Origin: Actinomycetota bacterium
GTDB taxonomy: Bacteria; Actinomycetota; Thermoleophilia; Gaiellales; Gaiellaceae
Direction: 5' to 3'
Assembly (NCBI GenBank): GCA_003162055.1
Contig: PMNA01000013.1
Coordinates: 183,064-247,063 of the forward strand
Length of the DNA: 64,000 nucleotides
Shown: piece after piece, positions 9,709 through 63,009 of the stretch
Layout: each line of letters opens with the position of its first letter
Numbering within the stretch: position 1 is the first letter of the stretch
The notes under the pieces: generated by a model
Databases searched by the model: none
Seen by the model: the letters and a program-made list of their open reading frames with translations, nothing else
Told to the model about the DNA's origin: nothing
Position numbers and translations under genes: made by a program

Positions 9709-9762
9709 GGCTGGAGATAGCGCCTCGCTCGCCCGCTCTGAGCTTCCTGTCAAACTGCGGCT

Positions 9763-17249: not shown

Positions 17250-17773
17250 CAGGGAAGGTACGGATCGCGTCTGGAGCGGTCGCAACTATTGCGGCCAAAG
17301 CCGCTGCGTCTTCGGACGGCTTCGAGACCGGGGGGATACTTCTGGGATTCGAGGCGAGTTGGCTTGGCGAGGTGCTAGTTCTCGAAGCTGGCGGTCCTGG
17401 CCCAAACGCAGAACGACGACGCGATTTCTTCTGTCGCGACCTCGGACACGCGCAACGCCTCGCGAACGATGCCTTCTTACGCACGACTGCACGATGGATA
17501 GGCGAGTGGCACACACATCCCTACGGCCCTCTCGCGCCCAGCCGCAAAGACCTCCGAACCTACCGGCGGTTCTTGCGAGACCCAGAACTCGGATTCAAGA
17601 GCTTCATCGCCGTTATAGTCGGATCGAACGACGGAGAATGGAAAAAGCCGCGCGCTGCCGCATGGCTAATCGGCTTGCGCCGGGTTCTTCCAGCCCTGCT
17701 TCTTCCGGGCCTTGACCGCCTCGACATTGTCTTGGAGAACTCGCCGATCGATGGGAGAGACGATGACCGCTGA
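17246..17773 (+). CDS. JAB/MPN metalloprotease (Cap3-like deconjugase)
   Basis: GTG at 17246 gives 'MTGKVRIASG...'; JAMM motif 'GEWHTHPYGPLAPSRKD' (HxHP...SxxD); GTGA overlap with the E1 gene. Confidence 0.9.
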   Translation: MTGKVRIASGAVATIAAKAAASSDGFETGGILLGFEASWLGEVLVLEAGGPGPNAERRRDFFCRDLGHAQRLANDAFLRTTARWIGEWHTHPYGPLAPSRKDLRTYRRFLRDPELGFKSFIAVIVGSNDGEWKKPRAAAWLIGLRRVLPALLLPGLDRLDIVLENSPIDGRDDDR

Positions 17774-28043: not shown

Positions 28044-28158
28044 GCTCATGGGAGAGCTGAGAGCGCTAACTTAGGCCTATCGATACCCTGAGTCGTGGGG
28101 AGAATGGGTACCTGGCCAAAACCGGGCCGCAATCCGGCGCGCTTTGTATCGTGGACCT

Positions 28159-29760
28159 GTGAGTACCGAGATACTGATTACCGAGTTCGTCGAGCGCGTT
28201 CGCGAACAGGCCCGCTCGCTTGAGCCAGAGGAGATCCGCCGGGCGCTCGCTTCCGAACTCCGCAATGTTGCCCGTGCATATGCACGAAACCCGGCCGACT
28301 GGTCGGCCTGGGCGAACGGAGTCGACGTGCCCGGCGACGCCTACGAGGCTCTCGTCAGCGGCGCCGATCGTCGCGACGCCGGCCAGTTCCAGACGCCCGC
28401 CTCGGCAGCCGACCTGATGGCAGCCTGGCTGTTACAAGAGCCCACCGAGCTACTTCTCGACCCCGGCGTCGGAGCGGGCCGCCTTCTCTTCCGGGCGGTT
28501 CAGCGCCCCGAGTCAAGCCCGAAGCGACTTCTTGGCCTCGACGTCGATCCGGTGTCCCTTGAAATGGCACGCGTGAACCTGCTCTTGCGCGGGATTACCA
28601 ACTGCGGGCTTCGGCAGACCAACTTCTTAGTCGGAGACCTTCATGAGCGTCCGGACGCGCTGATCTGTAACCCACCCTATTCCCGCCATCACGCGATCCC
28701 CGCCACCGAGAAGGAGGCGATCCACACCGGTTTCGAGGAACGGCTTGGGCTACGCCTCAGCCGCCTTGCGGGCCTTCACGTCCTGTTCTTGGTTCGCGCG
28801 CTTGAGATCATTGAATACGGCGGTCGTCTCGCATTCATCACCCCCGCAGAGTGGCTGGACGCGAACTACGGGCGCGCCGTCAAGCGCTTCGTACTTGACC
28901 ACGCTCAGGTCGAAGCGCTGGTGATCTGGGAGCACGACCACCTCTTCTTCGACGGCGCGCTAACCACGGCTGCGATCACCCTTCTGCGGGCTGGGGCGCC
29001 CAGCTCCGGGCCGACTCGTGTGGTTCGTCTTCCGCGGCGCCAGCTCGCGGTTGAGGAGGTGATCGCTGCGATTGCCGGTGAGAACACGAGACTTCGCGTC
29101 GACGACGTCGAGCTTTCCGCCGAGGCCAAGTGGAGCCGGCCGGCTAGGCGGCGCACGCCCCGCGGTACACCGCTGAAGGACCTCGCGCGGGTGCGCCGCG
29201 GGATTGCCACCGGCTGTAACCGCTTCTTCGTTGTCTCCGAAGCTTCTCGTCGTAAGAATCGACTTAATCTTTCCCACGTACGCCCCTGTATCGCTACGCC
29301 GCGTCTTATATTGGGAGACGAACTGGCGGTTCATGCCCTCGAGTGCCTTCCGGACGACGTTCCTCGCTGGGTACTCGATTGTCGGGATCCGAACGCAGAA
29401 AGGGTCGGCCCCCTCGGGAGGTATTTGCGCTGGGGCAAGGAGACTTTCGGGGCACATACCGGTTATCTCGCGTCCCGGCGCGATCCCTGGTACGCCCTCG
29501 AGCGTCGAGAAGCGTCCCCGATCCTCTTCACTTACATGAATCGCCAGCATCCGCGCTTTATCCGGAATCGCGCCGGAGCCATACCACTCAACACGTTTCT
29601 CATCGTCGAACCGCACGACGGCGTCGATGCGGACAAGCTGTGGTGGGCCCTTAACAGCGCTCACGTCATGCGGCAGCTTGCAGGCGCGCGGCGCAATTAC
29701 GGCGGCGGTCTCTGGAAACTTGAACCACGGGAACTCGGTAATCTCAAAGTCCGGCTGTAG
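28159..29760 (+). CDS. N6-adenine DNA methyltransferase of the XamI-like R-M system
   Basis: 'LLDPGVGAGRLL' motif I-like, 'ALICNPPYSRHH' (NPPY), 'IEYGGRLAFITPAEWLDANYG'; adjacent to the REase gene. Confidence 0.9.
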   Translation: MSTEILITEFVERVREQARSLEPEEIRRALASELRNVARAYARNPADWSAWANGVDVPGDAYEALVSGADRRDAGQFQTPASAADLMAAWLLQEPTELLLDPGVGAGRLLFRAVQRPESSPKRLLGLDVDPVSLEMARVNLLLRGITNCGLRQTNFLVGDLHERPDALICNPPYSRHHAIPATEKEAIHTGFEERLGLRLSRLAGLHVLFLVRALEIIEYGGRLAFITPAEWLDANYGRAVKRFVLDHAQVEALVIWEHDHLFFDGALTTAAITLLRAGAPSSGPTRVVRLPRRQLAVEEVIAAIAGENTRLRVDDVELSAEAKWSRPARRRTPRGTPLKDLARVRRGIATGCNRFFVVSEASRRKNRLNLSHVRPCIATPRLILGDELAVHALECLPDDVPRWVLDCRDPNAERVGPLGRYLRWGKETFGAHTGYLASRRDPWYALERREASPILFTYMNRQHPRFIRNRAGAIPLNTFLIVEPHDGVDADKLWWALNSAHVMRQLAGARRNYGGGLWKLEPRELGNLKVRL

Positions 29761-29809
29761 TACCTGCCGCTGAGCGAGGGACGGGGCCCCGCATGGCGAA
29801 GATACTGGC

Positions 29810-30760
29810 GTGCCACGCCCGCCTGATTCCTGGACAGAGAAGGAGCTGGAGGGAGACGCCGCGGAGGCGCGGCGTCGTTTCGTGCTTGAACGGCGCTCGG
29901 CTCTTGCTCGCGAGCAGAAGACCTACGCACAGTGGCTTGTCGAGTACACATCGGCCGTTCGTCGCCTGCTTGGAGCCAGCAACGATCTTCGCGATCTCGT
30001 AGCGTCAGCGCTGACCGAGCGAGAGCTTCTCAATCTCGCTCGCTATCTCGCCGTCCCGCCAATCAGCCTAGACGACCTCGATACGCTGACCGATGCGTGC
30101 TTTGGTCTCTGGGTCGGGCAAAAGACCGAGCGCGGAACTCGCCCGACGGACGAGGAGTTTGCCTCTGCGGCGGAACTCATCTCCGAACGTATTGACCACG
30201 GACGGGCGCCGTGGCTCGCCCTGGGACGATCTCCGACGGAGATCGAACGCGAGAACTTCGCCAATTGGATGGCGTCAATCCCGGCAATGAATAGGCTAAC
30301 GACGATACGACGCGGCGAGCGTTCGCGCCAGCAGGAGGACCTGACGCGCGCTGCGGCCAAGGCAGCCGGATACCGGCCGGCCATATCACCCGGCACGCTG
30401 ACGGATCCGGTCAAAGACATGTACCCGGGCACTTACTCGCAAAAGAGTCGCCGCTTGCTCGGTACCAATATGGACGTGCCAATCCGGCTCAAAGCGAATC
30501 ACGCGACCGGCCAAGTCTTCATCGCGGTCGAGTGCAAAGTCTCGAACAGCTCGCTCAACAGCCGAAAACGGCTTCTTGAGATTAGAAGCAAGCGAGAAAC
30601 TTGGGACTCATCGGGGCTTCCGCACAGATTCAGAACTGCAGCCGTCCTTACCGGTGTTTTCGACGTCGGTCGCCTAATCGAGACCCAGGACACTGGCGTC
30701 CTGATCTTCTGGGAGCACCGACTCCAAGACTTGACTGAGTTTCTTCAAGCGAGAGCTTGA
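29810..30760 (+). CDS. XamI-family type II restriction endonuclease (GTG start)
   Basis: 'KSRRLLGTNMDVPIRLKANHATGQVFIAVECKVSNSSLNSRKRLLEIRSKRETW...TAAVLTGVFDVGRLIETQDTGVLIFWEHRL'. Confidence 0.88.
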   Translation: MPRPPDSWTEKELEGDAAEARRRFVLERRSALAREQKTYAQWLVEYTSAVRRLLGASNDLRDLVASALTERELLNLARYLAVPPISLDDLDTLTDACFGLWVGQKTERGTRPTDEEFASAAELISERIDHGRAPWLALGRSPTEIERENFANWMASIPAMNRLTTIRRGERSRQQEDLTRAAAKAAGYRPAISPGTLTDPVKDMYPGTYSQKSRRLLGTNMDVPIRLKANHATGQVFIAVECKVSNSSLNSRKRLLEIRSKRETWDSSGLPHRFRTAAVLTGVFDVGRLIETQDTGVLIFWEHRLQDLTEFLQARA

Positions 30761-43678: not shown

Positions 43679-44482
43679 ATGTCTGAGATGAACAAAACGG
43701 AAACTGCGGCCGCCACTAAGCATCTTGAAGTTGCCGGACTCCATATTCGGTGCCTTACGCGTGGCAGTGGCAGGCCAGTGCTGGTGCTCCATGGTTGGGG
43801 TGGCAGCATCGAGTCCGTTCTTCCCGTCGTGACCTCGTTAGCCTCGGTCGCGACCGTGTATGCAATCGACGCGCCTGGATTCGGCGAGTCGGATCCTCCG
43901 CCGCGGGCCTGGGGTACGGGTGAATACGCCGAGTTCATAAACGAGCTTCTCGAGACCCTCGCGCTTAGCCGGCTAACCGTCGTCGGGCACTCATTTGGCG
44001 GTCGCATAGCTATCCGCCTCGCCGTTGAGTATCCACATCGAGTGGAGAAACTGATCCTCGTCAACAGCGCCGGGATCCGACCTAGACGGAAAGCAAGGTA
44101 CTATCGTCGCGTCGCGCTCGCGAAGGTCGGGAAGGCTCTTGGACGTTTCGCCGGTCTTCCTGGAAGACGCCTCCAAGCCCGAATCGTGCGAAGCACTGCC
44201 TCACCTGACTACCTGAGCGCCGGCGAGCTTCGATCGACCTTCGTCCGAGTCGTGAATGAAGACCTGGCGCCCCTCTTACCAAAGATCGCCGTTCCCACGC
44301 TTCTCCTCTGGGGAGGTCGGGATGAGGAGACGCCGTTGTCCCAAGGAAGGCTGATGGAGAAGCTCATACCTGATGCGGGACTCGTCGTCTTCGAACGCGC
44401 CGGACATTACAGCTACATCGACGAGCCCGACGCGTTTGGAAGGGTCGCTCGGAACTTCGTTGAAGCGAAAGGCGTAGCGTGA
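43679..44482 (+). CDS. Alpha/beta hydrolase
   Basis: 'VLVLHGWGGSIES', nucleophile elbow 'VVGHSFGGRIA', 'PTLLLWGGRDEETPL', 'FERAGHYSYIDEPDAF'. Confidence 0.92.
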   Translation: MSEMNKTETAAATKHLEVAGLHIRCLTRGSGRPVLVLHGWGGSIESVLPVVTSLASVATVYAIDAPGFGESDPPPRAWGTGEYAEFINELLETLALSRLTVVGHSFGGRIAIRLAVEYPHRVEKLILVNSAGIRPRRKARYYRRVALAKVGKALGRFAGLPGRRLQARIVRSTASPDYLSAGELRSTFVRVVNEDLAPLLPKIAVPTLLLWGGRDEETPLSQGRLMEKLIPDAGLVVFERAGHYSYIDEPDAFGRVARNFVEAKGVA

Positions 44483-46122
44483 CAGTGGTGTTTCTTGGTT
44501 CCGTCGTGGTGGTGGTAGCTATCGTCGCCGATTACTCCGGGCGCGCTCGGAGGTGGCTGCATATCTACCAACTAGAGCACTATGACGGCGTGCGTCTCCT
44601 CCATTGGTGGCATCGTCGACGCGACCTTCTTCATCCGGCGGCGCTTCTCGTTTCCGTTTGCGCTCTTATCGCGGCTGACGCCTTACTCGCCCTGGACATC
44701 AGTTGGGCGGCGGCGGTTCTACTCATTCCTATTACAATCGCCTCCGCTGTGGTCGCCCTTCGTGAGTGGCGACGGCCAGAGAAAAAGGAGTTCGTGTTTA
44801 CCGCGAGGGCTAAGCGTCTGTTCGCTACCTCTCTCGTTCCAGCTGCTTTCTTCGTCCTCGTTTTTTGCGCGCTCGCGATCGTCGAGGCCGGCACACTTTC
44901 AGCGGTAGCTCTCGGCTCGCTGCTTGGGGCCGGTCTGTTGATGGTGATCGTCGTGCCCGCCCTTCTGATTACGGCCAATGCTGCCTTATCGCCTGTTCAG
45001 AGACGAGTCAATGGCCGCTTTGTATCGAATGCGCGGGCCAAGCTCACGGCCGTTAGCCCTATAACGATTGGGATTACGGGAAGCTTCGGGAAGACTACGA
45101 CCAAGTTTTGCGTAGGTGCCGTGCTGTCGACCGCTGGCGAGACATACGTGACCCCCGATAGTTTCAACAGTTTTCTCGGGGTCACGCGCGCGATTAATGA
45201 AGGCTTGGGACTAGAACACCAATTCTTCGTGGTCGAGATGGGTGCGTATCGCAAAGGCGATATCGCCGAGCTGTGCAATCTAACAAAGCCGAAAATCGGC
45301 ATCTTGACGGCGATCGGCGCAATGCATCTTGAGCGTTTCGGGTCTATCGATGCGATCAGTCGAGCAAAGGCAGAGCTATGTAGAGGGCTGTCAATGGATG
45401 GGCATTTCGTCACGAACGCGGACGACGCCCTCTGTCGTGCGATTGCGGAGGCCGCCGAGGTTCCAGTTACTCTATTTGGGATCGAGTCTTCAGATGCGGA
45501 TATACGCGCAACGGATATAGACGTTACGCTCGACAAAACATCATTCACTCTTCATCTTAACGAGCGGGAATATCCGGTGGAGTCTCATCTTCTGGGACGG
45601 CATAATGTGCTTAATCTTCTTGCGGCCGCCGCCTGCGGCGCAGTAGTCGGTATCGACGAAGAGCGGATCGTCCGCGCGCTTGAAATAGTTGAAGCGCCAC
45701 CTCATCGACTCGCTCGCATCGAGAATCGAGCGACGGGGATCACCGTCATCGATGACGCGTATAACTCGAATCCCGATGGCGCAGCCGCCGCTCTGGAAAT
45801 CTTGAACACGCATACGAATGGCCGCCGCGTCTTAGTGACACCGGGGATGGTCGAATTAGGGGAACAAGAGAAAGCAGCGAATATCGCATTCGGTCGAACC
45901 GCCGCGAGAGTCTGTGATTTCGTGATCCTCGTCGGAGGAGAGCTGACGGAGCCGATCGAGCGAGGTCTTAAAGACGGGGGGCTTGCCGACGACCGGATCG
46001 TGCACTCGCCGGATGTCGAGCATGCGACGAGAGAACTCAGTAAGATCATCCGTGCGGGCGATATTGTTTTGTTCGAGAATGATCTACCGGACACCTACAT
46101 CGATGAGCGACGCGAAGGCTGA
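44479..46122 (+). CDS. Membrane-domain-fused Mur ligase (MurF-like catalytic region)
   Basis: N-terminal hydrophobic segments, then P-loop 'ITIGITGSFGKTTTK', 'VVEMGAYRKGDIAELCNLTKPKIGILTAIGAMHLERFGS', 'LLGRHNVLNLLAA', 'VIDDAYNSNPDGAAAALE'. GTGA overlap with the hydrolase. Confidence 0.9.
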   Translation: MTVVFLGSVVVVVAIVADYSGRARRWLHIYQLEHYDGVRLLHWWHRRRDLLHPAALLVSVCALIAADALLALDISWAAAVLLIPITIASAVVALREWRRPEKKEFVFTARAKRLFATSLVPAAFFVLVFCALAIVEAGTLSAVALGSLLGAGLLMVIVVPALLITANAALSPVQRRVNGRFVSNARAKLTAVSPITIGITGSFGKTTTKFCVGAVLSTAGETYVTPDSFNSFLGVTRAINEGLGLEHQFFVVEMGAYRKGDIAELCNLTKPKIGILTAIGAMHLERFGSIDAISRAKAELCRGLSMDGHFVTNADDALCRAIAEAAEVPVTLFGIESSDADIRATDIDVTLDKTSFTLHLNEREYPVESHLLGRHNVLNLLAAAACGAVVGIDEERIVRALEIVEAPPHRLARIENRATGITVIDDAYNSNPDGAAAALEILNTHTNGRRVLVTPGMVELGEQEKAANIAFGRTAARVCDFVILVGGELTEPIERGLKDGGLADDRIVHSPDVEHATRELSKIIRAGDIVLFENDLPDTYIDERREG

Positions 46123-46154
46123 CCGCGGTGACGCGGAGGAGAACTCAAACCGGA

Positions 46155-46376
46155 ATGACTGAGCGCAGCCTATATATCTTAAACGTGAAGTTCGGGAACC
46201 AACACATTCGCCTGTTCTTTGAAGGTCCGAACGAGGAAACAGGCGGTAGAGATGAGTTTAACGCTACGCGCCGCGGAATAAACGAAATCGGCGATAACAG
46301 TTCGGACTTCGAGTCGTTCTTGGGCGGTGTTATCGCTCACTTCGCTACCGCTGGGTTCATACGGATAGCTCATTAG
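46155..46376 (+). CDS. Small protein between the Mur ligase and the D-Ala-D-Ala ligase
   Basis: 'MTERSLYILNVKFGNQHIRLFFEGPNEETGGRDEFNATRRGINEIGDNSSDFESFLGGVIAHFATAGFIRIAH'; the track ORF starts at GTG 46128. Confidence 0.5.
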   Translation: MTERSLYILNVKFGNQHIRLFFEGPNEETGGRDEFNATRRGINEIGDNSSDFESFLGGVIAHFATAGFIRIAH

Positions 46377-46399
46377 TAGAAAGGTTTAGGAGCGAGTTA

Positions 46400-47560
46400 A
46401 TGAGAGTTGGAGTGATTTTCGGCGGTGCGTCTGTTGAACACGATGTATCAATAATCACCGCTCTTCAGGCGATGGCTGTTCTATCGGTAAGGCACTTGGT
46501 CGTGCCCATTTACATCACGCGAGCCGGCCGCTGGCTTAGCGGAGACAACCTCCGCGATATCGAGACTTATCGCACGGACGTCGAACCTAACGTTACCGAG
46601 GTTTACCGCGATCTGAGCGATGGAGTCATTCGTCCTCTTAAGGGAAAGAGAGGCATTTTTGGTCGAGGTGCCAAGGAGGCGGTTGTCGACACGATCTTGC
46701 CGGCCGTGCATGGGACATATGGCGAGGACGGATCGCTTCAGGGTCTGCTCGAGCTGAGTGGCGTTCCGTATGTTGGTAGTTCGGTCAGTGCTTCGGCCGT
46801 GGCGATGGACAAGATCCTAACGAAGGCGGTCTTGAGGGCACACGGTCTCCCTACGCTAGAGTCAAAAGAGATTCTGCGCGAAACATGGGTCGAACGCGGC
46901 GAAGAGGTCGTGACATTAGCTTCGGAGACTTTTCGGTGGCCTGTATATGTGAAGCCAGTCTCCTTGGGTTCTAGCATCGGTGTTAATCGTTGTGTTGATG
47001 AAGTACAAGCAATAGAAGCTCTACGGCTCGTGTTCGAACTTGATCGAGCGGCGCTTATAGAACCAAGCGTCGAGCACGCGGTTGAGATTAACTGCGCCGT
47101 TCTAGGTGCTCACGGCGGCGATCTCCGAGCTTCGGTTTGCGAGCAGCCAATCGCTCAACAAGAGGTCTTGTCGTTCGATGACAAGTACTTGCGCGGCAGT
47201 AAGACCGAAGGCATGAAAGGCGCCGAGCGGATCATTCCCGCGCCGATAGGCGAAGGCGCGACGAAGAGAGTCCAGGAGCTTGCGAAACAATCGTTCTCGG
47301 CCCTCGGGTGCGCTGGCCTAGCTCGCGTTGACTTCTTGATGGACAAAGATGGACGAATTATCGTCAACGAGCTGAACACGATTCCTGGATCGCTTTCTTT
47401 CTATCTCTGGGAACATGATGGCTTCGCTTTCGCTGATCTACTCGACGAGCTTCTACGACTAGCGTTCGTCGAGCACGAAAAGAAGCGAGCAACAACGAGG
47501 GTGTTCGCGAGCACGCTTCTGGCTAGCGCGCCGGTGTCTGGTGTTAAGGGGAATGTATGA
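46400..47560 (+). CDS. D-alanine--D-alanine ligase family ATP-grasp enzyme
   Basis: 'VIFGGASVEHDVSIITALQAM', 'VHGTYGEDGSLQGLLELSGVPYVGSSVSASAVAMDK', 'VKPVSLGSSIGV', 'SFDDKYL', 'VDFLMDKDGRIIVNELNTIPG'. Confidence 0.94.
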   Translation: MRVGVIFGGASVEHDVSIITALQAMAVLSVRHLVVPIYITRAGRWLSGDNLRDIETYRTDVEPNVTEVYRDLSDGVIRPLKGKRGIFGRGAKEAVVDTILPAVHGTYGEDGSLQGLLELSGVPYVGSSVSASAVAMDKILTKAVLRAHGLPTLESKEILRETWVERGEEVVTLASETFRWPVYVKPVSLGSSIGVNRCVDEVQAIEALRLVFELDRAALIEPSVEHAVEINCAVLGAHGGDLRASVCEQPIAQQEVLSFDDKYLRGSKTEGMKGAERIIPAPIGEGATKRVQELAKQSFSALGCAGLARVDFLMDKDGRIIVNELNTIPGSLSFYLWEHDGFAFADLLDELLRLAFVEHEKKRATTRVFASTLLASAPVSGVKGNV

Positions 47561-47612
47561 GAGCCGAGCAAGTCGTCGTGCGTGTAGTAGGGTCTATACG
47601 CGAGGAAAGCAA

Positions 47613-48056
47613 GTGAGCGATCATAGTGAGTTTGCGTCAGAGCTAGCGATTCTGCGAGGCGAGGGGCCTCCGCTTGAGGACCCTGACCCCGATTCGCTTG
47701 CCGAGCGAGAGGTCAACCGTCGCTGGGCGGCAATGAGGCGCCTTGGAGAGAATAATGTGTACGAGGCCGACGACCTAATTCGTCGTCAGCTGTACGCCAG
47801 CGACCCGACTCTCCGCGCTGAGGCAATCCACGTCCTTCTGGGTATCTGGCGGCGCTCCGACCTCCTAGGTTACGTAATCGAGCTAGCTGCGGATCGTGAC
47901 GAGTACCCGATGGTTCGCATGGTCGCAATCGAAGCGCTCGGTCTCTCGGATTTAGTTGAGAATGAGTCCGTGAGTAAGTTCGTTCGAGAGCTTGCCGTGC
48001 GCGAGGATGAGCCAGAGGTTAAGCGAGCGGCGACGAAGATACTAGAGCGGGGATGA
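47613..48056 (+). CDS. HEAT-repeat-like protein
   Basis: 'TLRAEAIHVLLGIWRRSDLLGYVIELAADRDEYPMVRMVAIEALGLSDLVEN...REDEPEVKRAATKILE'; GTG start; stop overlaps the VanX-like ATG. Confidence 0.65.
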   Translation: MSDHSEFASELAILRGEGPPLEDPDPDSLAEREVNRRWAAMRRLGENNVYEADDLIRRQLYASDPTLRAEAIHVLLGIWRRSDLLGYVIELAADRDEYPMVRMVAIEALGLSDLVENESVSKFVRELAVREDEPEVKRAATKILERG

Positions 48057-48730
48057 CGACTGACCCGCACGGGGAGCCGCTGCCCTGGCAGCAAGTTCCA
48101 ATCGCCGAGTGCGGAGAACCTCTAGAGAGGGTTATCCCGGGTGATCGTCTTCTTGTCGACCCCATCTACCGGCGTTTAGGCTATCCGGAGGCGCTCGACC
48201 GTGTATTCCTCCGAACCGGAGTCATCGATCGCCTTCGTGCCGCGGCGCAAGCGTTGCCCGACGGGTTCGCTATACAAGTATGGGACGGGTGGCGGCCAGT
48301 CTCCTTGCAATCGCGACTCTACAACGACTATAAGGCGGAACTCGTCGATAGCTCATCACTCGATGGCGCTGAACTCGAAGATCTCGTGGCGAAGTTCGTT
48401 TCCATGCCCTCTTCTGATCCAACACATCCATCGCCTCATTTAACTGGGGGCGCTGTCGATTTGACACTAACGGATTTAACGGGAACACCATTAGATATGG
48501 GCAGCTCTTTCGACGAACTAACCGAGCGCTCGTACACCGATTACTACGGCACAACGAGCGATAATAGTCATACGATCTTTCGAGAACGTCGAGAGATGCT
48601 ACTCGCGGTCATGCATGGGGTAGGGTTCACTAACTTCGAGTCCGAGTGGTGGCACTTCGACTACGGAGACCAGTTTTGGGCAGAGGCTATGTCACGGTCA
48701 GCGGTTTATGGGAAGGTATCGCCCGTATAG
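48053..48730 (+). CDS. VanX-like D-Ala-D-Ala dipeptidase
   Basis: 'SPHLTGGAVDLTL' (SxHxxGxAxD) and 'ESEWWHFDYGDQFWA' (ExxWH) match the VanX Zn/catalytic motifs. Confidence 0.9.
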   Translation: MTTDPHGEPLPWQQVPIAECGEPLERVIPGDRLLVDPIYRRLGYPEALDRVFLRTGVIDRLRAAAQALPDGFAIQVWDGWRPVSLQSRLYNDYKAELVDSSSLDGAELEDLVAKFVSMPSSDPTHPSPHLTGGAVDLTLTDLTGTPLDMGSSFDELTERSYTDYYGTTSDNSHTIFRERREMLLAVMHGVGFTNFESEWWHFDYGDQFWAEAMSRSAVYGKVSPV

Positions 48731-50028: not shown

Positions 50029-50475
50029 TTAAATTGAGGGAGGAAGCCATAGTTTTGCGGTCGGTTGAGGAGTTTCCGGCTGGACAGAGGCCGACGAGGC
50101 CGACACACTCGAGACAGCATAATCGTGCACGATCCGTTCGGCGGCTTCCAACGTGATATCGGCAGGCGTGGTACGACGGGAACCTCTTCGCGATCCGTTA
50201 GCGAGCAGATGGCGTGGCGGAGTCCTGCTGGAAACCCAAGCACGAACTTCACCCCAACAACAAGTCGCGCGTTGAACCATTCAGGCGTTCCAGTAAGGAC
50301 ACCTTCTGGATCCTTGATGCTGCCGTCTTTTGTGACGTTCCAGCGAGCGCCGACGGAGTCGTCAGTCATCACGATCGTTTGGACACCCGCTGCTTCGCCG
50401 CCTTCGACGATCGACGTGAGGCGAGTCGAAGTCTCCTCGGTGAAGCCACGAGGATATCCCGTTACGACGAGGATA
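50029..50475 (-). pseudogene. Fragment of an FtsK/SpoIIIE-like ATPase gene, probably frameshifted
   Basis: Minus strand reads 'DYHILVVTGYPRGFTEETSTRLTSIVEGGEAAGVQTIVMTDDSV...' then, in another frame, 'PADITLEAAERIVHDYAVSSVSASSASVQPETPQ'. Confidence 0.5.
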
Positions 50476-51163
50476 TGGTAATCACCTCGTCCTTCGAGAT
50501 CTCGTGCCAGAGAGGCAGAATCACTTGCTTGCCGCTGACAGCCATCGTCACCAAGCCGTCGAGTTCGTACTGCGGCCAGCCCTTGGCGAAGAAGGCGTGG
50601 GAGAGAACCACAACACCGAAGTTGCTATTGGCGATGCCACTGTCGATCTTCTGCCTGAGGCTATCTCCGATCCTCAGCTCGAACTCGTCGTACCAGACAC
50701 GAAGCTCGCGCTCCTGAAGGGCAACGGCAAGCGGGCGCACGATCGCATCCTTGTCTTCGGTTGCGTGCGAGATGAAGACGTCGAACTCGCGCTCCTCAGT
50801 GGCTCGCGCCGGTGGAATATCGCTCACGTTGTGAGCGATCTCGGCGAGGTCTCGACGCTGCTCGCGGATCGGAGGCAACGGCTTGAAGGCAGAAGCGCGA
50901 ATGACCCGAGCGCCGCTGCGGATCTGTCCGCCTCGGAGTCCTTGCATGTCCACCACGACGAACCAATGACCACTATGGGGAATACCGATCCGAGTCGGGG
51001 ACCGGGTTGCCAGACCTCCCCAATAACGATGGTCTGCGGAGCGCTTGTAACGGCTGAGATTCGAGCTGTCGAGAAGGCGGACGTTGGCGCCCGTTGAGAG
51101 TGTGACCTCGGCGACATCGCCCCGATTGCAGTGACCAAGGTCGTATTGCAGGAAGTCGGCCAT
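50462..51163 (-). CDS. DUF1883-TIR domain protein, C-terminus altered at a junction
   Basis: 'MADFLQYDLGHCNRGDVAEVTLSTGANVRLLDSSNLSRYKRSADHRYWGGLATRSPTRIGIPHSGHWFVVVDMQG' plus TIR 'FDVFISHATEDKDAIVRPLAVALQERELRVWYDEFELRIGDSLRQKIDSGIANSNFGVVVLSHAFFAKGWPQYELDGL'. Confidence 0.88.
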   Translation of the reverse strand: MADFLQYDLGHCNRGDVAEVTLSTGANVRLLDSSNLSRYKRSADHRYWGGLATRSPTRIGIPHSGHWFVVVDMQGLRGGQIRSGARVIRASAFKPLPPIREQRRDLAEIAHNVSDIPPARATEEREFDVFISHATEDKDAIVRPLAVALQERELRVWYDEFELRIGDSLRQKIDSGIANSNFGVVVLSHAFFAKGWPQYELDGLVTMAVSGKQVILPLWHEISKDEVITISSS

Positions 51164-54505: not shown

Positions 54506-55120
54506 ATGGATTCCCCCCAAGTCACCGAAAGCCGGTCTCCTCTACCGAGCGGGATCACGCCGCCAACGGCGAGCGGCGCCTGGGTACTCGTAAGCGCTCT
54601 AGTGGTCGTGATCGGCAGCCTCGGCGCCTGGGTTGAAACCCCAGCTGGCAACATCTACGGCGCCCAAGGGATCGGCTGGATCGGCGCCCTCCTCGGTGGC
54701 TTTGCGCTCGTTGCCTCAGTTGTTCGTATCCTCTTTAATCGCGCGAGTTGGCCACTTGTCTTCGTGGTATTCATAGGTATCGGGGGATTTATAACCGCTG
54801 TCTTCCTCTGGATTGCTCTCAGAACCTTTGGAGCGGCGAGCTGGATCTGGAATACAGTGATCGCCCACTGGTCGTCGAGCAATGACCTCGGTCGCTTCCA
54901 CGCCTCGACTGGTTGGGGTCTCTACCTATTGCTCCTGGGATCACTCAGCCTCACCATCTCGCCCCTCTTTCTGCTCGCCTCCGAAGGCCGGGCAAAGTTA
55001 CGGCAACGCTCTCTCCGAGACCGGGTACGTGATCGCGCAAAGACTGCAGTTGACGCACCCAAGCATCCCGCGGACGCGAGCGACGACGTCCCTGTCGTTC
55101 AGCGCGATAGCCTCCTTTGA
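54506..55120 (+). CDS. Membrane protein, about 4 TM, first gene of the vWA/tubulin-like operon
   Basis: Four hydrophobic segments and a charged C-terminus; stop overlaps the next ORF. Confidence 0.65.
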   Translation: MDSPQVTESRSPLPSGITPPTASGAWVLVSALVVVIGSLGAWVETPAGNIYGAQGIGWIGALLGGFALVASVVRILFNRASWPLVFVVFIGIGGFITAVFLWIALRTFGAASWIWNTVIAHWSSSNDLGRFHASTGWGLYLLLLGSLSLTISPLFLLASEGRAKLRQRSLRDRVRDRAKTAVDAPKHPADASDDVPVVQRDSLL

Positions 55121-55158
55121 GACATGGGCGCTTGACATGTGGGACGCCGTGTGAACAT

Positions 55159-57486
55159 ATGGCCAAACTAGGCCCTCGGCGGCGGAGCATGATGCGGATG
55201 AGTTTGTGGGGTGACAAGTGCATACATCGAGCATGCGTGCTGACCACGGCGAGAAGTCTGCGCGCGCTGTTAATCGTGCTTGTCGCGCTCGCTGTCACAT
55301 CGACTACTAGCGGCGTGGCAGGGAGAAGGTCGAGCACCCAGCTAAAGCCGATACGGGTGGTCGTCTTGATTGATGAGTCTGGGTCTGAGACGTCAACATC
55401 GATCGCGAGCGAGCGCGATGCAGCATCGCTTCTAGCGCTGAGCGAGCTCTCAAACGATTCGTCGTTTCTCGTTGCGGGCTTCGGTAGCAGTAATCGTCGT
55501 GGTCAGACCGCTGTTACCTCGTATTGCCAATTCGTCCCACTCTCGACGCCGAATGCTCGGGAACGCGCGGCCGCGTGTGCGCGTCGAGCGCATGCTCGAA
55601 CTGCTGCCCAGGGGAATGACACCGATCAGCAGGCGGCGCTTCGCTTCGCGGTTGACGCCCTGACCTCGACTCCCGCAGGAACGACGCCGGTTATCTTCCT
55701 CATGACCGATGGCGTTCTCGATGTCAGCCACTCCCCGCAGTATGGAAGGACGCCAGGCGGTCGCGACCGAGAGGCGCTTCGTCTAGTTCAAGCGGACGTC
55801 CTCCCAACTGCGCGGCGAGCTGGCGTGCAGATCTGGCCTATTGGCTTCGGCCCGCAAGCAAACAAGGCCGACCTTAACCGCTTCGCAGTAGGAGGTGCTG
55901 GCGCGAATGCAGAGTGTTCAGGACCTGAAGCGCGACCGCACGCCATCGTGGCCGAAGGCGCATCCCATTTGCTGGTTGATCTACTCACCGCGTTGGGGCG
56001 GGCGCGCTGTGCTCATGTGGAATCGCCAACTAGTGGGCGGGTTGAAGCGGGAAAGACGCTAACGCTTCGCGTGACGATCCCAGTGATCGCGACCGACGGC
56101 GCGATCACTGTGACAAAACTCGACCCCAGCTTCAGGGTTGCTTACTTTGATCCGGCGGGGCAGCAAGTTCCAGCGAGAGGCGAGCTAAACGGCCAGATCT
56201 TCTCGCTCTCGGGACAGAATGATCGGGTAGAAGCCCTCCGTATCGAGAACCCTCAACCGGGGACGTGGAAGATTGAAATCACAGACCCGGCACGCCACCC
56301 CGGCCAAACGGTGAGTGCACTCGCTGTTTGGGAGGGGGCACTGAGCGCGGCTATCGTGCTCGATCCTCCGAATCCGCTGCCAGGCCAAAAGGCTCACGTT
56401 CAGGTCATTCTGCAGACTCGCTATGGGGTCGTCCGCAACCCGAGTGCGCTTCGAGGGCTGAGTGCCTCAGCCGTCGCGAGCGGTTCGTTCGGGACACTCT
56501 CGATTCCGCTGAACGACAATGGCCGGGGGCAGGACGCTCGCGCACATGACGGCATATTTAGTGGGTTGTTCACTTTCCCTAAGGGCACGAGTGGGTGTGT
56601 TCATCTCACCGGCAAGATCGCCGGGCGAGGCATCGCTTCGGATCAGCGCGCATATGACTTTTGCCCGCCGCCTCCGGGCCTTTCCGCGACATTCGATGTC
56701 AATTGGCCGGTTCACCTTCACGCAGGAGACTCGGTCAAAGGCTCTGTATTGGTTACGAACCAGACCGGTAATCAAGAAGGATCGTTGAGCCTATCGGAGA
56801 TCTCAAACGGCGCGCTCGTTACAGTAGCGCCAGCCAACGTCAAGCTTGCGAATGGTACTTCGCGTATTTCTTTCCGCGTGACGTTCTCAAACCGCTCTAC
56901 AAAGGGCGATGTCACGGGACGACTCCAACTGCGAACCCGTGATGGACATTCAATCTCGGAGACATATATCTCAACGCGTATCGTCACGCCCCCCGGTTTC
57001 TTCGCTCGCTTCTGGTGGTTGCTCGTCGCGGCCTTTCTGATAAGCGGAACTGGGGCCGCGACGGTTACTGCTCGACGGCGGAAAGCTCTTAGGCTTGCAC
57101 GAGTTGACGGGTTACTCGCGCGCCTTCGGCGCGATGGGAAGGAATTGAGCACTTTGTCTGCTCCGCTAAGCGAGAACATTTTCCGCTTGCAATACATCGA
57201 TGACAGCGACGCGGAGCCGCGTCTGCGCCTTGCGATGAACGATGGCGAGGCAAACCTGTTGGTGACTCGCTCCGGGATGGGCTATGCAGTCGAGGGTCCA
57301 GGACGCACACGAACGACAGCCGATTTCGGCGCGGAGGTTCTGATTAATGACGATGTCATGCTTGTTATCGAAGATGTTTCGGTCAGGAAGGCCGCCGATA
57401 CGGTTGCAGTCGGTGAATCTCCAAAGCAGTCGTTTGGTCCGTATATAGCCGACGAACCAAGCGAACCCCCGGACATCTTGATGTAA
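55159..57486 (+). CDS. Exported vWA-domain protein with C-terminal TM and cytoplasmic tail
   Basis: 'RVVVLIDESGSETSTS' MIDAS-like DxSxS; 'TTPVIFLMTDGVLD'; late TM 'FWWLLVAAFLISGTGAATVTARRRK'. The track ORF starts at TTG 55117. Confidence 0.8.
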   Translation: MAKLGPRRRSMMRMSLWGDKCIHRACVLTTARSLRALLIVLVALAVTSTTSGVAGRRSSTQLKPIRVVVLIDESGSETSTSIASERDAASLLALSELSNDSSFLVAGFGSSNRRGQTAVTSYCQFVPLSTPNARERAAACARRAHARTAAQGNDTDQQAALRFAVDALTSTPAGTTPVIFLMTDGVLDVSHSPQYGRTPGGRDREALRLVQADVLPTARRAGVQIWPIGFGPQANKADLNRFAVGGAGANAECSGPEARPHAIVAEGASHLLVDLLTALGRARCAHVESPTSGRVEAGKTLTLRVTIPVIATDGAITVTKLDPSFRVAYFDPAGQQVPARGELNGQIFSLSGQNDRVEALRIENPQPGTWKIEITDPARHPGQTVSALAVWEGALSAAIVLDPPNPLPGQKAHVQVILQTRYGVVRNPSALRGLSASAVASGSFGTLSIPLNDNGRGQDARAHDGIFSGLFTFPKGTSGCVHLTGKIAGRGIASDQRAYDFCPPPPGLSATFDVNWPVHLHAGDSVKGSVLVTNQTGNQEGSLSLSEISNGALVTVAPANVKLANGTSRISFRVTFSNRSTKGDVTGRLQLRTRDGHSISETYISTRIVTPPGFFARFWWLLVAAFLISGTGAATVTARRRKALRLARVDGLLARLRRDGKELSTLSAPLSENIFRLQYIDDSDAEPRLRLAMNDGEANLLVTRSGMGYAVEGPGRTRTTADFGAEVLINDDVMLVIEDVSVRKAADTVAVGESPKQSFGPYIADEPSEPPDILM

Positions 57487-57502
57487 CGAAAAAGGAGATC
57501 GT

Positions 57503-60500
57503 GTGAAGATCTACCAGAGGTTTTTGTACGTCGGGCTAGGCGGCACGGGATTGAAGATTGGTGCGCAACTCGAGCAGAGGTTGAGGCTCGAGCTCTGCGG
57601 CGCAGATGGGCTTGCGCTCGCTTCCAACCCGGCCTTTGGTGGGTCGCTGAGCCCGTTCGAGTTGCCAAAGTTCGTTCAATTTATCTACGCGGATTTTGAT
57701 GAACGCGAACGTCGATCCGTCGAGAGTGCAAGTGAACGGTTCACAAGGAGTGCCGCAGCAAGGAACACCGCGACTTTCATCTCCAACCTTACGCCCCATC
57801 AAAACAGCTATGCGAAGGTCGCCGAAAGCCTGCGTACCGAGTGTTATCCGCTCGTAAGGGAATGGCTGCCGCCCGAGGACAATGAGCCAAAAGTTGCGCC
57901 GCTTCGGGACGGCGCAGGCCAGTATCCGACGGTTGGTCGAGCGGCATTCTTCGAGACGATTCGCGCTCAAGGACTTGTGAGCATCGAGGACCCGTTGGAG
58001 AAAGCGATCGCGAGGCTAGCGAATGCCGGCGGTGAACTGGATGGCTTTCTCGGTAAGCAAGCACGCCGTGGCTGCGACGTCTTCGTCGGCTTCTCGGTGG
58101 CGGGCGGCACGGGAACAGGTGTCTTCTACGATTTTCTCAGGCTCGTTTCGTGGAAAGTGAAGGAGGTCCTTGGGACCGGGGCAGATAGCCACGTGCATGT
58201 GTATCCGCTCGTAGTCTTGCCATCTGCTTTTGACGAAGGCAAAGGAGGGGGACGAGCAGCGCAGCTCAACGGCGGGCCGGCGCTGCGCGAGCTGTTCGCT
58301 GCGATCGATCGCTGCAACACCGGTGTTTCAGGCCCGGCTCCCGCTTACCCCGGTGCGGAGCACAAGTCTATTCCAGCGGAGATCGACGCTAGAACTGCGT
58401 TCATTTTCCGGCGGCCCGAGGCAATCACGATTGAAGATCTTCACCGCTCGATAGTGTCGTTCGTCGTCTCGCTGATAGGAACGGAACTTCGTACCCAGGA
58501 GGGCACCGCAGAGGGATCGTTTGCATCCTGGTTCGTCAATCGGGCCGGCGAGCGTCGGAACAGCGCTCCTGACGGGATTGGAAGGCAGCCGGCGTCCGCG
58601 GCGATCTCCGCGCAACTGACTATCCCGCTTGAGCAGATTTCTGAAATCCTCGCTTCGCGGCTTGTCGCGGACGCAACGCATGAGCTGCGCAAGCCGAAAC
58701 AGACCGAAAACAACCGTGACGAGATTCAAGCGTTCATCGCTGCAGCGGGTGTTACACCCCTTCAAGAGAGAGCGTATGTTGATCCACTCCCGTCGCTCGC
58801 TCACGACCTGCGAGGTGCTCGCGATATCTTCGCTCAACTTACACAGCGGCGTGAGACGGCCGTTCAGTACGTCCGCTCGTTCCAGAAGAGCCTCGATACT
58901 CGGGTAGCGCAACTTGCGGAGGGTTTCAACTACGGGGAGGGCGTCAAAGCCGTCGCTTCCAAGCACGACCTCTTCCGCGTTGCGCGTATAGCGCTCGGCG
59001 ACGCTCGTCTCGACGACAACAGAATAAACGAAGAAGGTGTCGTTGGCTTTCTTCGACGTAGGGCTGAGCCTCTTCAGCCCGAAGGCACTGACTTCGCGCT
59101 CACGGCTCCAACTCCACCGCAGCTCGGCGATAGCCTCGCTGGCATCGTCAAAGTGAAACTCTCGGATCCCGAGCCGAGGAACGCGCTTGAGACACAAAAC
59201 CGATGGTACGAGTGGCGAACGCAAGCAGAATGGCACGCGGCTTGGGCTAAATACGCAGAGTATTGGCGTCCAAAGGCAGACTCGTTGCGTAAAACCCTTA
59301 GCGAGATTGTCGAGGCGTTTAATGCGCATGCAACGGCCGAGCAGGAAAGGTTCCAGGAGAACTGTCATCGCCTCTACAGCGCAACACGCGGTGTCGTCTA
59401 CTTCCTGCCGGAGAGCGGTTCGACAAATGACTTGAGCCTCTTCTACGAGACTGCGGTTCTTCCGAGGCTACGGGAGCGACTCAAGCTTCCCGAAGGTAGC
59501 GATGAGGGCCAGATCCTCGATCGGATAATGGGGCAATCGTGGCTCGATGCCTATCTCGCGTCTACCCAGGCGCCTGCAGAGCAGACCGTCGAGTTTGTAC
59601 TAGACAAGGCCGAATCCGAGATCTACTCACTTCTTGCCGACGGGGGCGACGAAGAGAAACCGATCCTCCCACGCCTCTCAACCCTTCTCGCCGCGGTCGC
59701 GTCCGGCGCGACCGAACAAGCTGGGCTTCAGACCGGCCTTGTCGAACGTTTCCGGACTAGCGTCGGGTCACTTGTTCCGGCCGGCTTCGAGCCCGAGGGA
59801 TCAGGAAATGTCGATGTTCAGGTCTTTTATCCCGCTGCGGGGAAAAGCAGTGAGATCGAAGGATTCCTCGAGAAAGCTATTGCGGTCGGAGACCAGAACC
59901 CGGATTTCCACCAGATCGCAGACTCAAACTTCCTGGGTGTTGTCATTACGCGCGTCGCATTACCGGCGACTCAGATTCGGGAGTACAAGGACCTGATGCG
60001 GCTCTGGGCGGATGCTATTGACAATCCACGGCAGGACGATTACCTCGCGTGGCGGCAACGGCTCGGTTTTGACGCGCGGTGGATTGTGCTTGACGAAGAT
60101 GACCGCGTACAAGTGCTTCTCTGTCTCCTTAACGCGATGTGGGACGGTTCAATTCAGGTCGTCAAGGGTACGTCCGAAAGCCCCGAGCGAATTGCAATTC
60201 ATCAGTATGACGCCCCAGATGCGCCGCCAATCGAACTCGATTTCAAGGCATATGGGGATCTATCGCGCTGGTCGAATGTCCTACGCGCGTACGAGCGCTA
60301 TGCCCTCGGGCGTGAAGAAACGACGAGTCAGCGTTGTGCGCAACTGATGAAACGGCTCGCGCCCTACGGCGTCAGCGAAGACCCAGCGCCACCGAGCGAT
60401 CTCTATCGGGCCTTTCGGATTCTCGTCACTGAGCAAGCGGCTCGCGCCCAAGCGGTTGTCGATCGGGTCGCCGATCAGGCGAAGCCCGCCGCGCGCCAGG

Positions 60501-60625
60501 CTCTTGATTTTTGGACTGACACCGTACCCAAAGCACTTGAGCGGGAGTTTTTCGGAGGGGGCGGCCCGCGCGGACGAAACCATCTCCAACTCTTCGACAG
60601 CTTCGGTGAATCGGGTACATCGTGA
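57503..60625 (+). CDS. Large tubulin/FtsZ-like (Tubulin_2-type) protein, 1040 aa
   Basis: 'FLYVGLGGTGLKIGAQLEQRL' and 'DVFVGFSVAGGTGTGVFYDFLRL' (tubulin-superfamily GGTGTG). Confidence 0.85.
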   Translation: MKIYQRFLYVGLGGTGLKIGAQLEQRLRLELCGADGLALASNPAFGGSLSPFELPKFVQFIYADFDERERRSVESASERFTRSAAARNTATFISNLTPHQNSYAKVAESLRTECYPLVREWLPPEDNEPKVAPLRDGAGQYPTVGRAAFFETIRAQGLVSIEDPLEKAIARLANAGGELDGFLGKQARRGCDVFVGFSVAGGTGTGVFYDFLRLVSWKVKEVLGTGADSHVHVYPLVVLPSAFDEGKGGGRAAQLNGGPALRELFAAIDRCNTGVSGPAPAYPGAEHKSIPAEIDARTAFIFRRPEAITIEDLHRSIVSFVVSLIGTELRTQEGTAEGSFASWFVNRAGERRNSAPDGIGRQPASAAISAQLTIPLEQISEILASRLVADATHELRKPKQTENNRDEIQAFIAAAGVTPLQERAYVDPLPSLAHDLRGARDIFAQLTQRRETAVQYVRSFQKSLDTRVAQLAEGFNYGEGVKAVASKHDLFRVARIALGDARLDDNRINEEGVVGFLRRRAEPLQPEGTDFALTAPTPPQLGDSLAGIVKVKLSDPEPRNALETQNRWYEWRTQAEWHAAWAKYAEYWRPKADSLRKTLSEIVEAFNAHATAEQERFQENCHRLYSATRGVVYFLPESGSTNDLSLFYETAVLPRLRERLKLPEGSDEGQILDRIMGQSWLDAYLASTQAPAEQTVEFVLDKAESEIYSLLADGGDEEKPILPRLSTLLAAVASGATEQAGLQTGLVERFRTSVGSLVPAGFEPEGSGNVDVQVFYPAAGKSSEIEGFLEKAIAVGDQNPDFHQIADSNFLGVVITRVALPATQIREYKDLMRLWADAIDNPRQDDYLAWRQRLGFDARWIVLDEDDRVQVLLCLLNAMWDGSIQVVKGTSESPERIAIHQYDAPDAPPIELDFKAYGDLSRWSNVLRAYERYALGREETTSQRCAQLMKRLAPYGVSEDPAPPSDLYRAFRILVTEQAARAQAVVDRVADQAKPAARQALDFWTDTVPKALEREFFGGGGPRGRNHLQLFDSFGESGTS

Positions 60626-63009
60626 AGCTCACACCGTTAAATTACGTCACCGTTGTCGACCTCGATGCGGATGTAAACGACATTGGTAACGACTTCTCCG
60701 AGTTCCAACGGAGGCAATTGCCGGATGCGTCCGGTGGTCTCGTAGATGCGACGCGAGTCGTTGTCTTCGGTCGCTATTCAGGGCTTTGTGCATGTGAGTC
60801 GCTCGTCGAGGATCTCGTTCTCTCCGCATCGGTTGAACGAATACTCTTCGTTGTGACCGGTAGCGAAGAGGATCCCGGGCCCGGGGGATGTGTCCTCGAG
60901 CTACCGGTGCCACTTGGACGTAAAACAGCGGCAGTGCTTTGGATCGGTGACCCTCGGGGCGTTCTCTGGCGAATGAGAACGGCAAAAGCACAGGCACTGA
61001 CTGTCTCACGCGACGATCCAGAGGGCGAGGCGGCGCACGCCGCTCTGATCGACTGCCTGCGCCTTCCAGAGGTGTTTGACGCCGTTTTTGATTCAACGGT
61101 CGAGATCTCAACTATCGTCTCGCCGGGCCTGCATGTCGTAGTTCCTGGTGGTGGTGGAGCGGAGCTATTAAGTACCGCCGATGCCTCGGCCATTCACACC
61201 TTGGCTGGCGAGACGGCTCTTGATCTCCAAGAACTTGTTGGCACAGTGCCGCCGGCGATTGAAGGGAAGACATTCCTTTTTGGGAATGCGCCACCACCAC
61301 CAGAAATATTCGAGGCTGAAGGCCCTATCGGGCGACTGGTGCGCGAGATACATGAGTGTCATGCTGGAGCAACGAAGGCAGCGAGCGAGATCATAGAGCG
61401 GCCAAGCGTGCGCGCTAGAGCGGACGAGCCCACGAAGCGGATAAGGATTCTAGGCCAGGTGTTCTCTTCGTTGAAGACACTCTTGCGCGACGACCTTTTC
61501 GAACACGTCGATGGCTCGGATGGACTCGATCCGTCGGAGATCCAGGTGCTGAAGAAGGCCGGGCTTCGCGCAGCCGCGATTCAGCCGCGTACGGAGACGA
61601 ACTCCGGCGAGGCAGAGAACGAGCTGCGCGACTTCACTGTATCCGAGCTTCGCAAAACGGGATCTCTACTCGCTGTCGTCGGTGAGCTTCGAGTAATGGC
61701 CGATCGAGCACGACCGCGTTCCAGTCGAGAAACGATTGCGGCTCTTGATAACGCCTGCCCCGATTCCTTAATCGACCATCTGAAGTCTTTCCCATCGCTT
61801 CGTATCAGGCTCGGAGGCGCTCATCCGCTCACAACACTGTTCGCGCTCTTCGCTGTGACTCTCTGTATCCCGCCAGCGTTCATCCCACTTCCGATTGCTG
61901 GAGTTGTTCTGCTGGCGCTTGCGATGTTGCTTCTTTCTGGAACGACGACTCTGCGCAACCTTAAGGGTTTCTTCGCGCTCGAACGAGACAAGCTCTATGT
62001 GGTTGGTGGGACTGCAGCTGCGGGAATGATCGTGGGCGGAATTGTCCGGGCGACGGCAGAATCAAACGCGCTCACTATCGGTGCGTCGATCGCAGTGCCA
62101 CTTCTCTACGCTTTATGGGCGCGCGAAGTCTGGCACGACTCAACGGTTCGTTGGGTTGAAGGAGCGAGGCTTGAAGAGGTGCTTCCAGCGCTCGATCAAA
62201 TGCTCGACACAACGGTTGGTGTAACGATGAACGATTGGATTTTGGCCAACCCGCGAGTCCAGTTTGCGCGAACCGCAACTCGGATTGCAGACGCGTTGGA
62301 GCAGATCCGCGCTGGGTTGTTGGGAGAAATAGCTCCCAGCTCGGATGTGCAAACGCGCAGCGCGGAGTTGGTACGGAGGCGCTGCAACCCAGCCGTAAGA
62401 GCTGATCTGGATGAGCACGTTGGCGGTGGGCTATTGAGTCACGCAAATGAGATTGAGGAAATCGTCATGCACGACTACATCGATCTCATCGAGTCCTCGA
62501 TCGCGGAACACTGGGTTAGCATAAACTCCGCTCCCAACGACCAGTCGCCGAAAACCGTGTACGAGGCTTTTCAAGAACGCAGTCTCGAGTATCGTAACGA
62601 ATTGCAGCTTCACGGACTCTTCCGAGAGGCGACAGTCGGATTTGCGACAAACGGCAACCGCAGTGTGCGCGGAGCCAGAAAACGCGCAGACCTTTTAGCG
62701 GATCTCTGGCGTGAGATCGACGGCCTCGATGATCTTCTCGCCGTTACTCCCGATAGCGACATCGTTCAGTTCTGCGCGCCGGACGATTTGCTTCTCCTCA
62801 ACGAGAGTCCAGAGAGTGCGAAGATGGTGCGGTTTGCACCTGCGAGCTATTCACGAGACGGCTCGGGTTTACAGGTTACGCGTACCGAGATGATGTTGAT
62901 CGCCGGTGTCCTCAGACTCGTCCCATTACGAGCTGGCACCGCGCGTATCACGCCAGAGCGTAAACCAAAGCGCAAACGGCGATCGGCGGATGCGACTGCT
63001 TCTTCTTAG
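60622..63009 (+). CDS. Large membrane protein following the tubulin-like gene (795 aa)
   Basis: TM cluster 'LTTLFALFAVTLCIPPAFIPLPIAGVVLLALAMLLL' and 'LYVVGGTAAAGMIVGGIV'; GTGA overlap with the tubulin-like stop. Confidence 0.75.
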   Translation: MKLTPLNYVTVVDLDADVNDIGNDFSEFQRRQLPDASGGLVDATRVVVFGRYSGLCACESLVEDLVLSASVERILFVVTGSEEDPGPGGCVLELPVPLGRKTAAVLWIGDPRGVLWRMRTAKAQALTVSRDDPEGEAAHAALIDCLRLPEVFDAVFDSTVEISTIVSPGLHVVVPGGGGAELLSTADASAIHTLAGETALDLQELVGTVPPAIEGKTFLFGNAPPPPEIFEAEGPIGRLVREIHECHAGATKAASEIIERPSVRARADEPTKRIRILGQVFSSLKTLLRDDLFEHVDGSDGLDPSEIQVLKKAGLRAAAIQPRTETNSGEAENELRDFTVSELRKTGSLLAVVGELRVMADRARPRSSRETIAALDNACPDSLIDHLKSFPSLRIRLGGAHPLTTLFALFAVTLCIPPAFIPLPIAGVVLLALAMLLLSGTTTLRNLKGFFALERDKLYVVGGTAAAGMIVGGIVRATAESNALTIGASIAVPLLYALWAREVWHDSTVRWVEGARLEEVLPALDQMLDTTVGVTMNDWILANPRVQFARTATRIADALEQIRAGLLGEIAPSSDVQTRSAELVRRRCNPAVRADLDEHVGGGLLSHANEIEEIVMHDYIDLIESSIAEHWVSINSAPNDQSPKTVYEAFQERSLEYRNELQLHGLFREATVGFATNGNRSVRGARKRADLLADLWREIDGLDDLLAVTPDSDIVQFCAPDDLLLLNESPESAKMVRFAPASYSRDGSGLQVTRTEMMLIAGVLRLVPLRAGTARITPERKPKRKRRSADATASS

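Follow-up and report, generated by a model that had tools for sequence, protein, structure and literature searches.

A membrane-embedded relative of MurF encoded with a serine hydrolase and Ddl: a candidate alternative route to the complete peptidoglycan stem peptide

Introduction

MurF and Ddl are usually counted among the near-universal soluble enzymes, and both are viewed as drug targets. Among the relatives of the Mur ligases, MurT amidates lipid I and lipid II and not a soluble uridine diphosphate (UDP) precursor; the uridine that the Mur N-terminal domain holds is absent from this lipid substrate (PMC6085368). In addition, a further study (PMC4987650) describes Bacillus subtilis MraY as taking a precursor that carries only two amino acids, which would make a late addition of D-Ala-D-Ala feasible. 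Here, we describe a six-gene operon (positions 43679-48730, + strand) in a 64,000-nucleotide stretch of contig PMNA01000013.1 from an actinobacterium of the family Gaiellaceae; this whole stretch is referred to as the window. The core of the operon is a triad of genes encoding an alpha/beta-fold serine hydrolase, a MurF relative with predicted transmembrane (TM) helices, termed TM-MurF, and Ddl, whereas a VanX-like dipeptidase, a small open reading frame (ORF) and a HEAT-repeat protein are accessories. The triad is likely an alternative module that adds D-Ala-D-Ala to complete the peptidoglycan stem peptide. A search of the open-access full-text literature found no description of TM-MurF or of the triad, absence there not being proof, and TM-MurF is apparently a widespread and undescribed membrane-embedded version of MurF. 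A first-pass annotation of this DNA had proposed a peptidoglycan-stem module, which is supported by the pattern of MurF/Ddl replacement and by placement in a division and cell wall (dcw) cluster. That annotation missed the loss of the UDP-binding domain of MurF and the standing of the triad as the only MurF/Ddl in several lineages.

TM-MurF lacks the UDP-binding domain of MurF

TM-MurF, the second gene of the triad (44479-46122, + strand), matches Mur_ligase_M (PF08245, 2e-42) and Mur_ligase_C (PF02875, 1e-15). The MurF model TIGR01143 has 418 positions, of which only 65-403 align to TM-MurF; the score of 243 bits lies below the curated cut-off of 288.6, as do the scores of every other TM-MurF tested. 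Domains 2 and 3 of MurF are retained, and UDP-binding domain 1 is missing, its place being taken by ~190 residues with membrane helices (44479-45053, + strand, delimited from the secondary structure of an AlphaFold model). This model, built with 81 sequences, was obtained with a predicted local distance difference test score (pLDDT) of 93 and a predicted TM-score (pTM) of 0.91. Its long helices at residues 3-32, 53-71, 75-98, 109-137 and 142-169, after which another helix enters the ligase, suggest about five TM helices. The closest fold in the PDB is MurF of Acinetobacter baumannii (4qf5), matched over 364 columns at 2.5 A and through domains 2 and 3 only.

TM-MurF conserves the P-loop, H283, K297 and a DD-YN-NP motif of the MurF type for D-Ala-D-Ala, which suggests a catalytically active ligase, and its C-terminus carries ENDLPD where MurF has VLVKGSR. 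In a tree with the Mur ligases of Escherichia coli, the TM-MurFs form a single clade (100/100) that is sister to canonical MurF (both together 100/98). The membrane region has a motif of its own, Q31/Y35/W43 and K102/T108/R110/R113, in which Q31, Y35, T108 and R110 show little or no variation across 81-108 relatives. According to the positive-inside rule, these four residues may lie at the cytosolic face, where the pyrophosphate of a lipid-linked substrate would sit. Relatives in one family (f8) lack the TM2-TM3 hairpin and retain the motif residues.

TM-MurF in place of canonical MurF

Does TM-MurF accompany canonical MurF or stand in for it? Among 397 genomes of the window's phylum, with canonical MurF called at E <= 1e-78, TM-MurF was found in 28 and canonical MurF in 330. 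All but one of the TM-MurF genomes (27 of 28) are devoid of canonical MurF, the sole exception being the window's own genome (Fisher 1.9e-22), and in each of these 27 the hydrolase and/or Ddl adjoins TM-MurF. The triad Ddl was also observed to be the only Ddl in 13/13 triad genomes tested from this phylum. A family of Bacillota that includes Gracilibacillus gave the same picture: canonical MurF occurs in 0 of the 14 genomes with TM-MurF (148 genomes in all) and in 133/134 genomes without it (Fisher 1.0e-18). TM-MurF thus replaces canonical MurF in both samples, the occurrence of the two being mutually exclusive apart from the exceptions given. Related genomes share ancestry, so that these p-values overstate the number of independent events, though the two phyla agree.

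Since the thresholds of 1e-77/1e-78 may overlook divergent canonical MurFs, the result for the window's phylum was backed in two ways. A search at E <= 1e-30 in 13 triad genomes of the phylum returned TM-MurF plus weaker matches of MurE strength only. In a tree of the Mur-type ligases from three cultured isolates (Gracilibacillus, Aquibacillus and Peptoniphilus) and one single-contig actinobacterial genome, these four genomes were found to hold MurC, MurD, MurE, FolC or MurT-like proteins and TM-MurF, and no MurF. TM-MurF therefore stands in for canonical MurF in cultured Peptoniphilus, Gracilibacillus and Aquibacillus as well as in actinobacterial families, and the 'murF' calls in databases conceal two different enzymes.

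The genomic position of the triad agrees with this replacement. In the dcw cluster of a member of the Poribacteria (L104), the gene order is rsmH-ftsL-ftsI-murE-[triad]-mraY-murD-ftsW-murG-murC, which is otherwise E. coli-like and has the triad exactly at the place of murF, between murE and mraY.

Distribution of the triad

A family-specific profile scan across a genome collection of 84,980 species gave at least 529 confirmed TM-MurF matches, the best 80 of which come from at least 12 phyla, chiefly Bacillota and Bacteroidota. The order hydrolase-MurF-Ddl recurs at most of ~107 related loci, as it does at most of these 80, and is for this reason not due to chance. The recurrence of gene order, a check proposed in the first-pass annotation, thus applies to the triad and not to all six genes: VanX was found at two other loci, directly after the triad in both (L149, Aquibacillus; L164, a metagenome-assembled genome (MAG) of the Bacillota), and the small ORF at two, directly downstream of ddl in triads of the Oscillospiraceae (L157 and L126), and no relative of the HEAT protein was present at any other triad locus examined. 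No recurrent neighbour is common beside the other triads, whose flanking genes vary and are for the most part those of an ordinary chromosome. Five pattern matches on viral contigs included no TM-MurF relative, and matches on plasmids cover the ligase part alone (35-70% of the query), never including the TM domain.

Partner proteins and operon layout

The six ORFs lie on the + strand at the coordinates of the first-pass annotation, and the overlaps that it noted at the first and last junctions, GTGA at 44479 and ATGA at 48053, are real. Its reading of the MurF-like, Ddl and VanX-type motifs as intact likewise agrees with the Pfam domains, the catalytic motifs and the positions aligned with VanX 1R44.

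The hydrolase (43679-44482, + strand; Abhydrolase_1, PF00561, 4e-35) was modelled by AlphaFold with a pLDDT of 95. Its Ser105/Asp215/His243 and the family motif Ser175-x-Asp177-Tyr178 vary little or not at all among 101 relatives, and the same holds in a further alignment (A3). The fold neighbours in the PDB are general esterases/lipases only, with the phospholipase PlaF (6i8w) ranking first.

Ddl (46400-47560, + strand) matches Dala_Dala_lig_N (PF01820, 5e-29) and Dala_Dala_lig_C (PF07478, 1e-42) and exceeds the cut-off of NCBIfam PRK01966.1-4, whereas the Van-type NCBIfam models are all far below theirs. In this enzyme family, an omega-loop Tyr accompanies D-Ala-D-Ala ligases, and His or Phe accompanies Lac- or Ser-type Van ligases. 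Residues K262-Y263 align with the omega-loop K-Y of E. coli-type DdlA/DdlB, so that the operon Ddl is, as judged by its sequence, of the D-Ala-D-Ala type and not of the D-Ala-D-Lac/D-Ala-D-Ser type. The protein ends in a C-terminal extension of ~30 residues; in most relatives, this extension is basic and rich in Gly and Lys. It is missing from E. coli DdlB and from the canonical Ddl of the window genome, and it may serve to contact the membrane or a partner protein. Some of these triad tails (e.g., in L111, L118 and L151) contain repeats such as GGKMGGKMG.

Among the accessories, the VanX/DdpX-like M15 D-Ala-D-Ala dipeptidase (48053-48730, + strand; Peptidase_M15, PF01427, 3.5e-25) has zinc and catalytic positions that align with VanX 1R44, its sole sequence match in the PDB. 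It stays below the NCBIfam cut-off for VanX and below that for DdpX, the best NCBIfam match; it has no obvious signal peptide and is the only PF01427 member found in the window genome. The small ORF (46128-46376, + strand) has no match in Pfam, NCBIfam or PADLOC, and an in-frame ATG near 46155 is its likelier start, giving a protein of ~73-82 residues over the two possibilities. For the HEAT-repeat gene (47541-48056, + strand; HEAT_2, PF13646, 9e-10), the likelier start is a GTG at ~47613, preceded by an AGGA-rich stretch.

The operon as island cargo in the window

The first-pass annotation spoke of a defence-rich region, and the operon was indeed found on a genomic island of ~59 kb, which spans 12000-64000 of the window and has its right edge ~6.9 kb past the window. 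The island is not present in a relative of the same genus (G024), in which the orthologues of 11557-11967 and of a gene 70.9 kb from the window start lie <1 kb apart. Against a G+C content of 0.66 in the flanks, the island has 0.59 and the operon 0.565. At the left edge of the island lies a transposase-like ORF (12144-13724, - strand). The island carries a cyclic-oligonucleotide-based anti-phage signalling system (CBASS) at 14480-19223, identified with PADLOC and consisting of a cyclase (1e-125), E2, an E1-type protein and a SAVED-PDDEXK effector; an ORF within it (16814-17773) probably encodes a JAB peptidase. At 28144-30760, a type II methyltransferase adjoins a restriction-enzyme-like ORF, and a DUF1883-TIR protein (50462-51163, - strand) matches the PADLOC models PDC-S66 and ThsB. 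Four proteins are encoded by an apparent operon at 54506-63009: a membrane protein, one that is VWA-like, one of 1040 residues whose start carries a tubulin-like GGTG, and one of 795 residues.

A housekeeping murF, whose presence elsewhere in this genome had been raised in the first-pass annotation together with that of ddl, was found ~30 kb downstream along with murE, murD and murC, and the canonical ddl lies on another contig. The window operon is thus a second copy, carried on the island in addition to intact canonical murF and ddl, and the module is here defence-island cargo within a genome already holding both enzymes. Full-length TM-MurF occurs in no other genome of the family (103 sampled). 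The closest relative of the window TM-MurF is in a Solirubrobacterales MAG (L096, 50% identity), which suggests that it was probably acquired horizontally. Near TM-MurF in that MAG, a tandem pair of Ddl-like ORFs was observed (8817-11147), with a minus-strand ATPase ORF between this pair and TM-MurF.

Proposed function and its alternatives

In the proposed mechanism, Ddl would make D-Ala-D-Ala, and TM-MurF would ligate this dipeptide to N-acetylmuramic acid (MurNAc)-tripeptide on the cytoplasmic side of the membrane, with a lipid-linked precursor (lipid I/II-tripeptide) as the putative acceptor. The dedicated serine hydrolase would act together with TM-MurF and Ddl, and the VanX-like dipeptidase of the window operon would probably trim or recycle the (excess) dipeptide pool. 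A lipid-linked acceptor is a close call, falling slightly on the doubtful side. At about the same odds, the accepted order of peptidoglycan synthesis would be changed in hundreds of sampled species: D-Ala-D-Ala would be joined to the muramyl peptide once this has been transferred to undecaprenyl phosphate and not earlier, and the enzyme would be a membrane-integral MurF working on lipid-linked tripeptide alongside a dedicated Ddl and serine hydrolase. Completion of the stem peptide on the lipid carrier thereby becomes a testable question.

Several points weigh against the proposed function. The evidence for a lipid-linked acceptor consists of the domain swap and the analogy with MurT. Some TM-MurF genes stand without an adjoining hydrolase or Ddl, so that neither is strictly required next to TM-MurF. 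In 4/50 triad genomes, a canonical MurF that passes the curated cut-off is present as well, and six Bacteroidota genomes (L111, L118, L125, L129, L154 and L163) hold the triad together with a full-length MurF on an ORF of ~830 residues, probably a MurF-alanine racemase fusion. The module can therefore be either the sole system or an addition. One guess at why the window genome retains both systems is that a second set provides redundancy when Ddl or MurF is inhibited. A universal replacement of MurF by TM-MurF was considered and rejected, given the coexistence of the two in Bacteroidota and some Clostridia.

The alternative that survives best, possible if rather doubtful, is that TM-MurF is a MurF anchored in the membrane whose substrate remains soluble UDP-MurNAc-tripeptide, the TM domain merely positioning the enzyme near MraY. 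The catalytic core, which is the same as that of MurF, is consistent with such an enzyme, as is the dcw cluster of L104, where the slot of murF ahead of mraY is occupied. However, what is missing is the very domain with which Mur ligases bind uridine and contact the pyrophosphate, and the residues at the membrane interface are invariant across phyla, beyond what mere hydrophobicity would account for.

A VanHAX-like glycopeptide-resistance cassette, which would combine an altered dipeptide, a dedicated MurF and a VanX that clears the host D-Ala-D-Ala, is very unlikely. The VanX-like dipeptidase with its intact active site beside Ddl and a second MurF would fit such a cassette, as would the host ddl and murF elsewhere in the genome, but the Ddl has the K-Y omega-loop of D-Ala-D-Ala ligases, and most triads are without VanX, which in L149 and L164 adjoins the only Ddl of the genome. 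VanH- and VanT-like genes, reported missing in the first-pass annotation, were indeed not seen in a scan that covered the operon and its adjacent ORFs and not the remainder of the genome, and VanRS-like genes were not seen next to the operon either. The resistance role that had been considered possible was rejected on the Ddl motif and the missing VanH/VanT genes next to the operon.

Slightly less probable again is an envelope-based anti-phage or anti-toxin defence system, the anti-phage role having also been entertained initially. The company of CBASS, the probable type II restriction-modification pair and the TIR protein on the island speaks for it, but none of the six operon proteins matches a PADLOC model, no defence-type neighbour recurs at the other loci, where the flanks look chromosomal, and TM-MurF is the sole MurF in many genomes. 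Peptide natural-product clusters can contain ligase and hydrolase pairs, and the esterase/lipase matches of the hydrolase point to no particular substrate, but a pathway dedicated to a secondary metabolite, such as a small D-amino-acid peptide, is the least probable of all, in view of the mutual exclusivity with MurF, the sole-Ddl status and the dcw placement.

Comparison with known systems

What distinguishes the triad from the systems described so far? TM-MurF shares with MurF (TIGR01143) the central ATPase and C-terminal domains, the D-Ala-D-Ala motif, the sister position in the tree and, in L104, the dcw position, and differs from it in having TM helices for the N-terminal UDP-binding domain, ENDLPD for VLVKGSR, and scores below the cut-off. 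Like TM-MurF, MurT of the MurT/GatD lipid II amidotransferase is a Mur ligase relative that acts on a membrane-bound substrate, putatively so in the case of TM-MurF, and is encoded with a partner enzyme. However, such a TM domain is absent from MurT, which attaches ammonia to D-Glu and has a different position in the tree, and the partner of MurT is a class I glutaminase instead of a serine alpha/beta hydrolase (Ser-Asp-His).

The VanHAX/vanX clusters, together with the murF2 of glycopeptide producers, resemble the window operon in uniting a Ddl-family ligase, a VanX-type dipeptidase and a second MurF. Unlike in these clusters, no VanH/VanT/VanRS was seen next to the operon, which combines a D-Ala-D-Ala-type Ddl with a MurF that lacks domain 1, and VanX is rare among the triad relatives. 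Finally, E. coli DdpX, the best NCBIfam match of the M15 protein albeit below the cut-off, is similar in its cytoplasmic hydrolysis of D-Ala-D-Ala, whereas no ddp peptide transporter was seen beside the M15 gene of the window, which lies instead in a stem-peptide operon.

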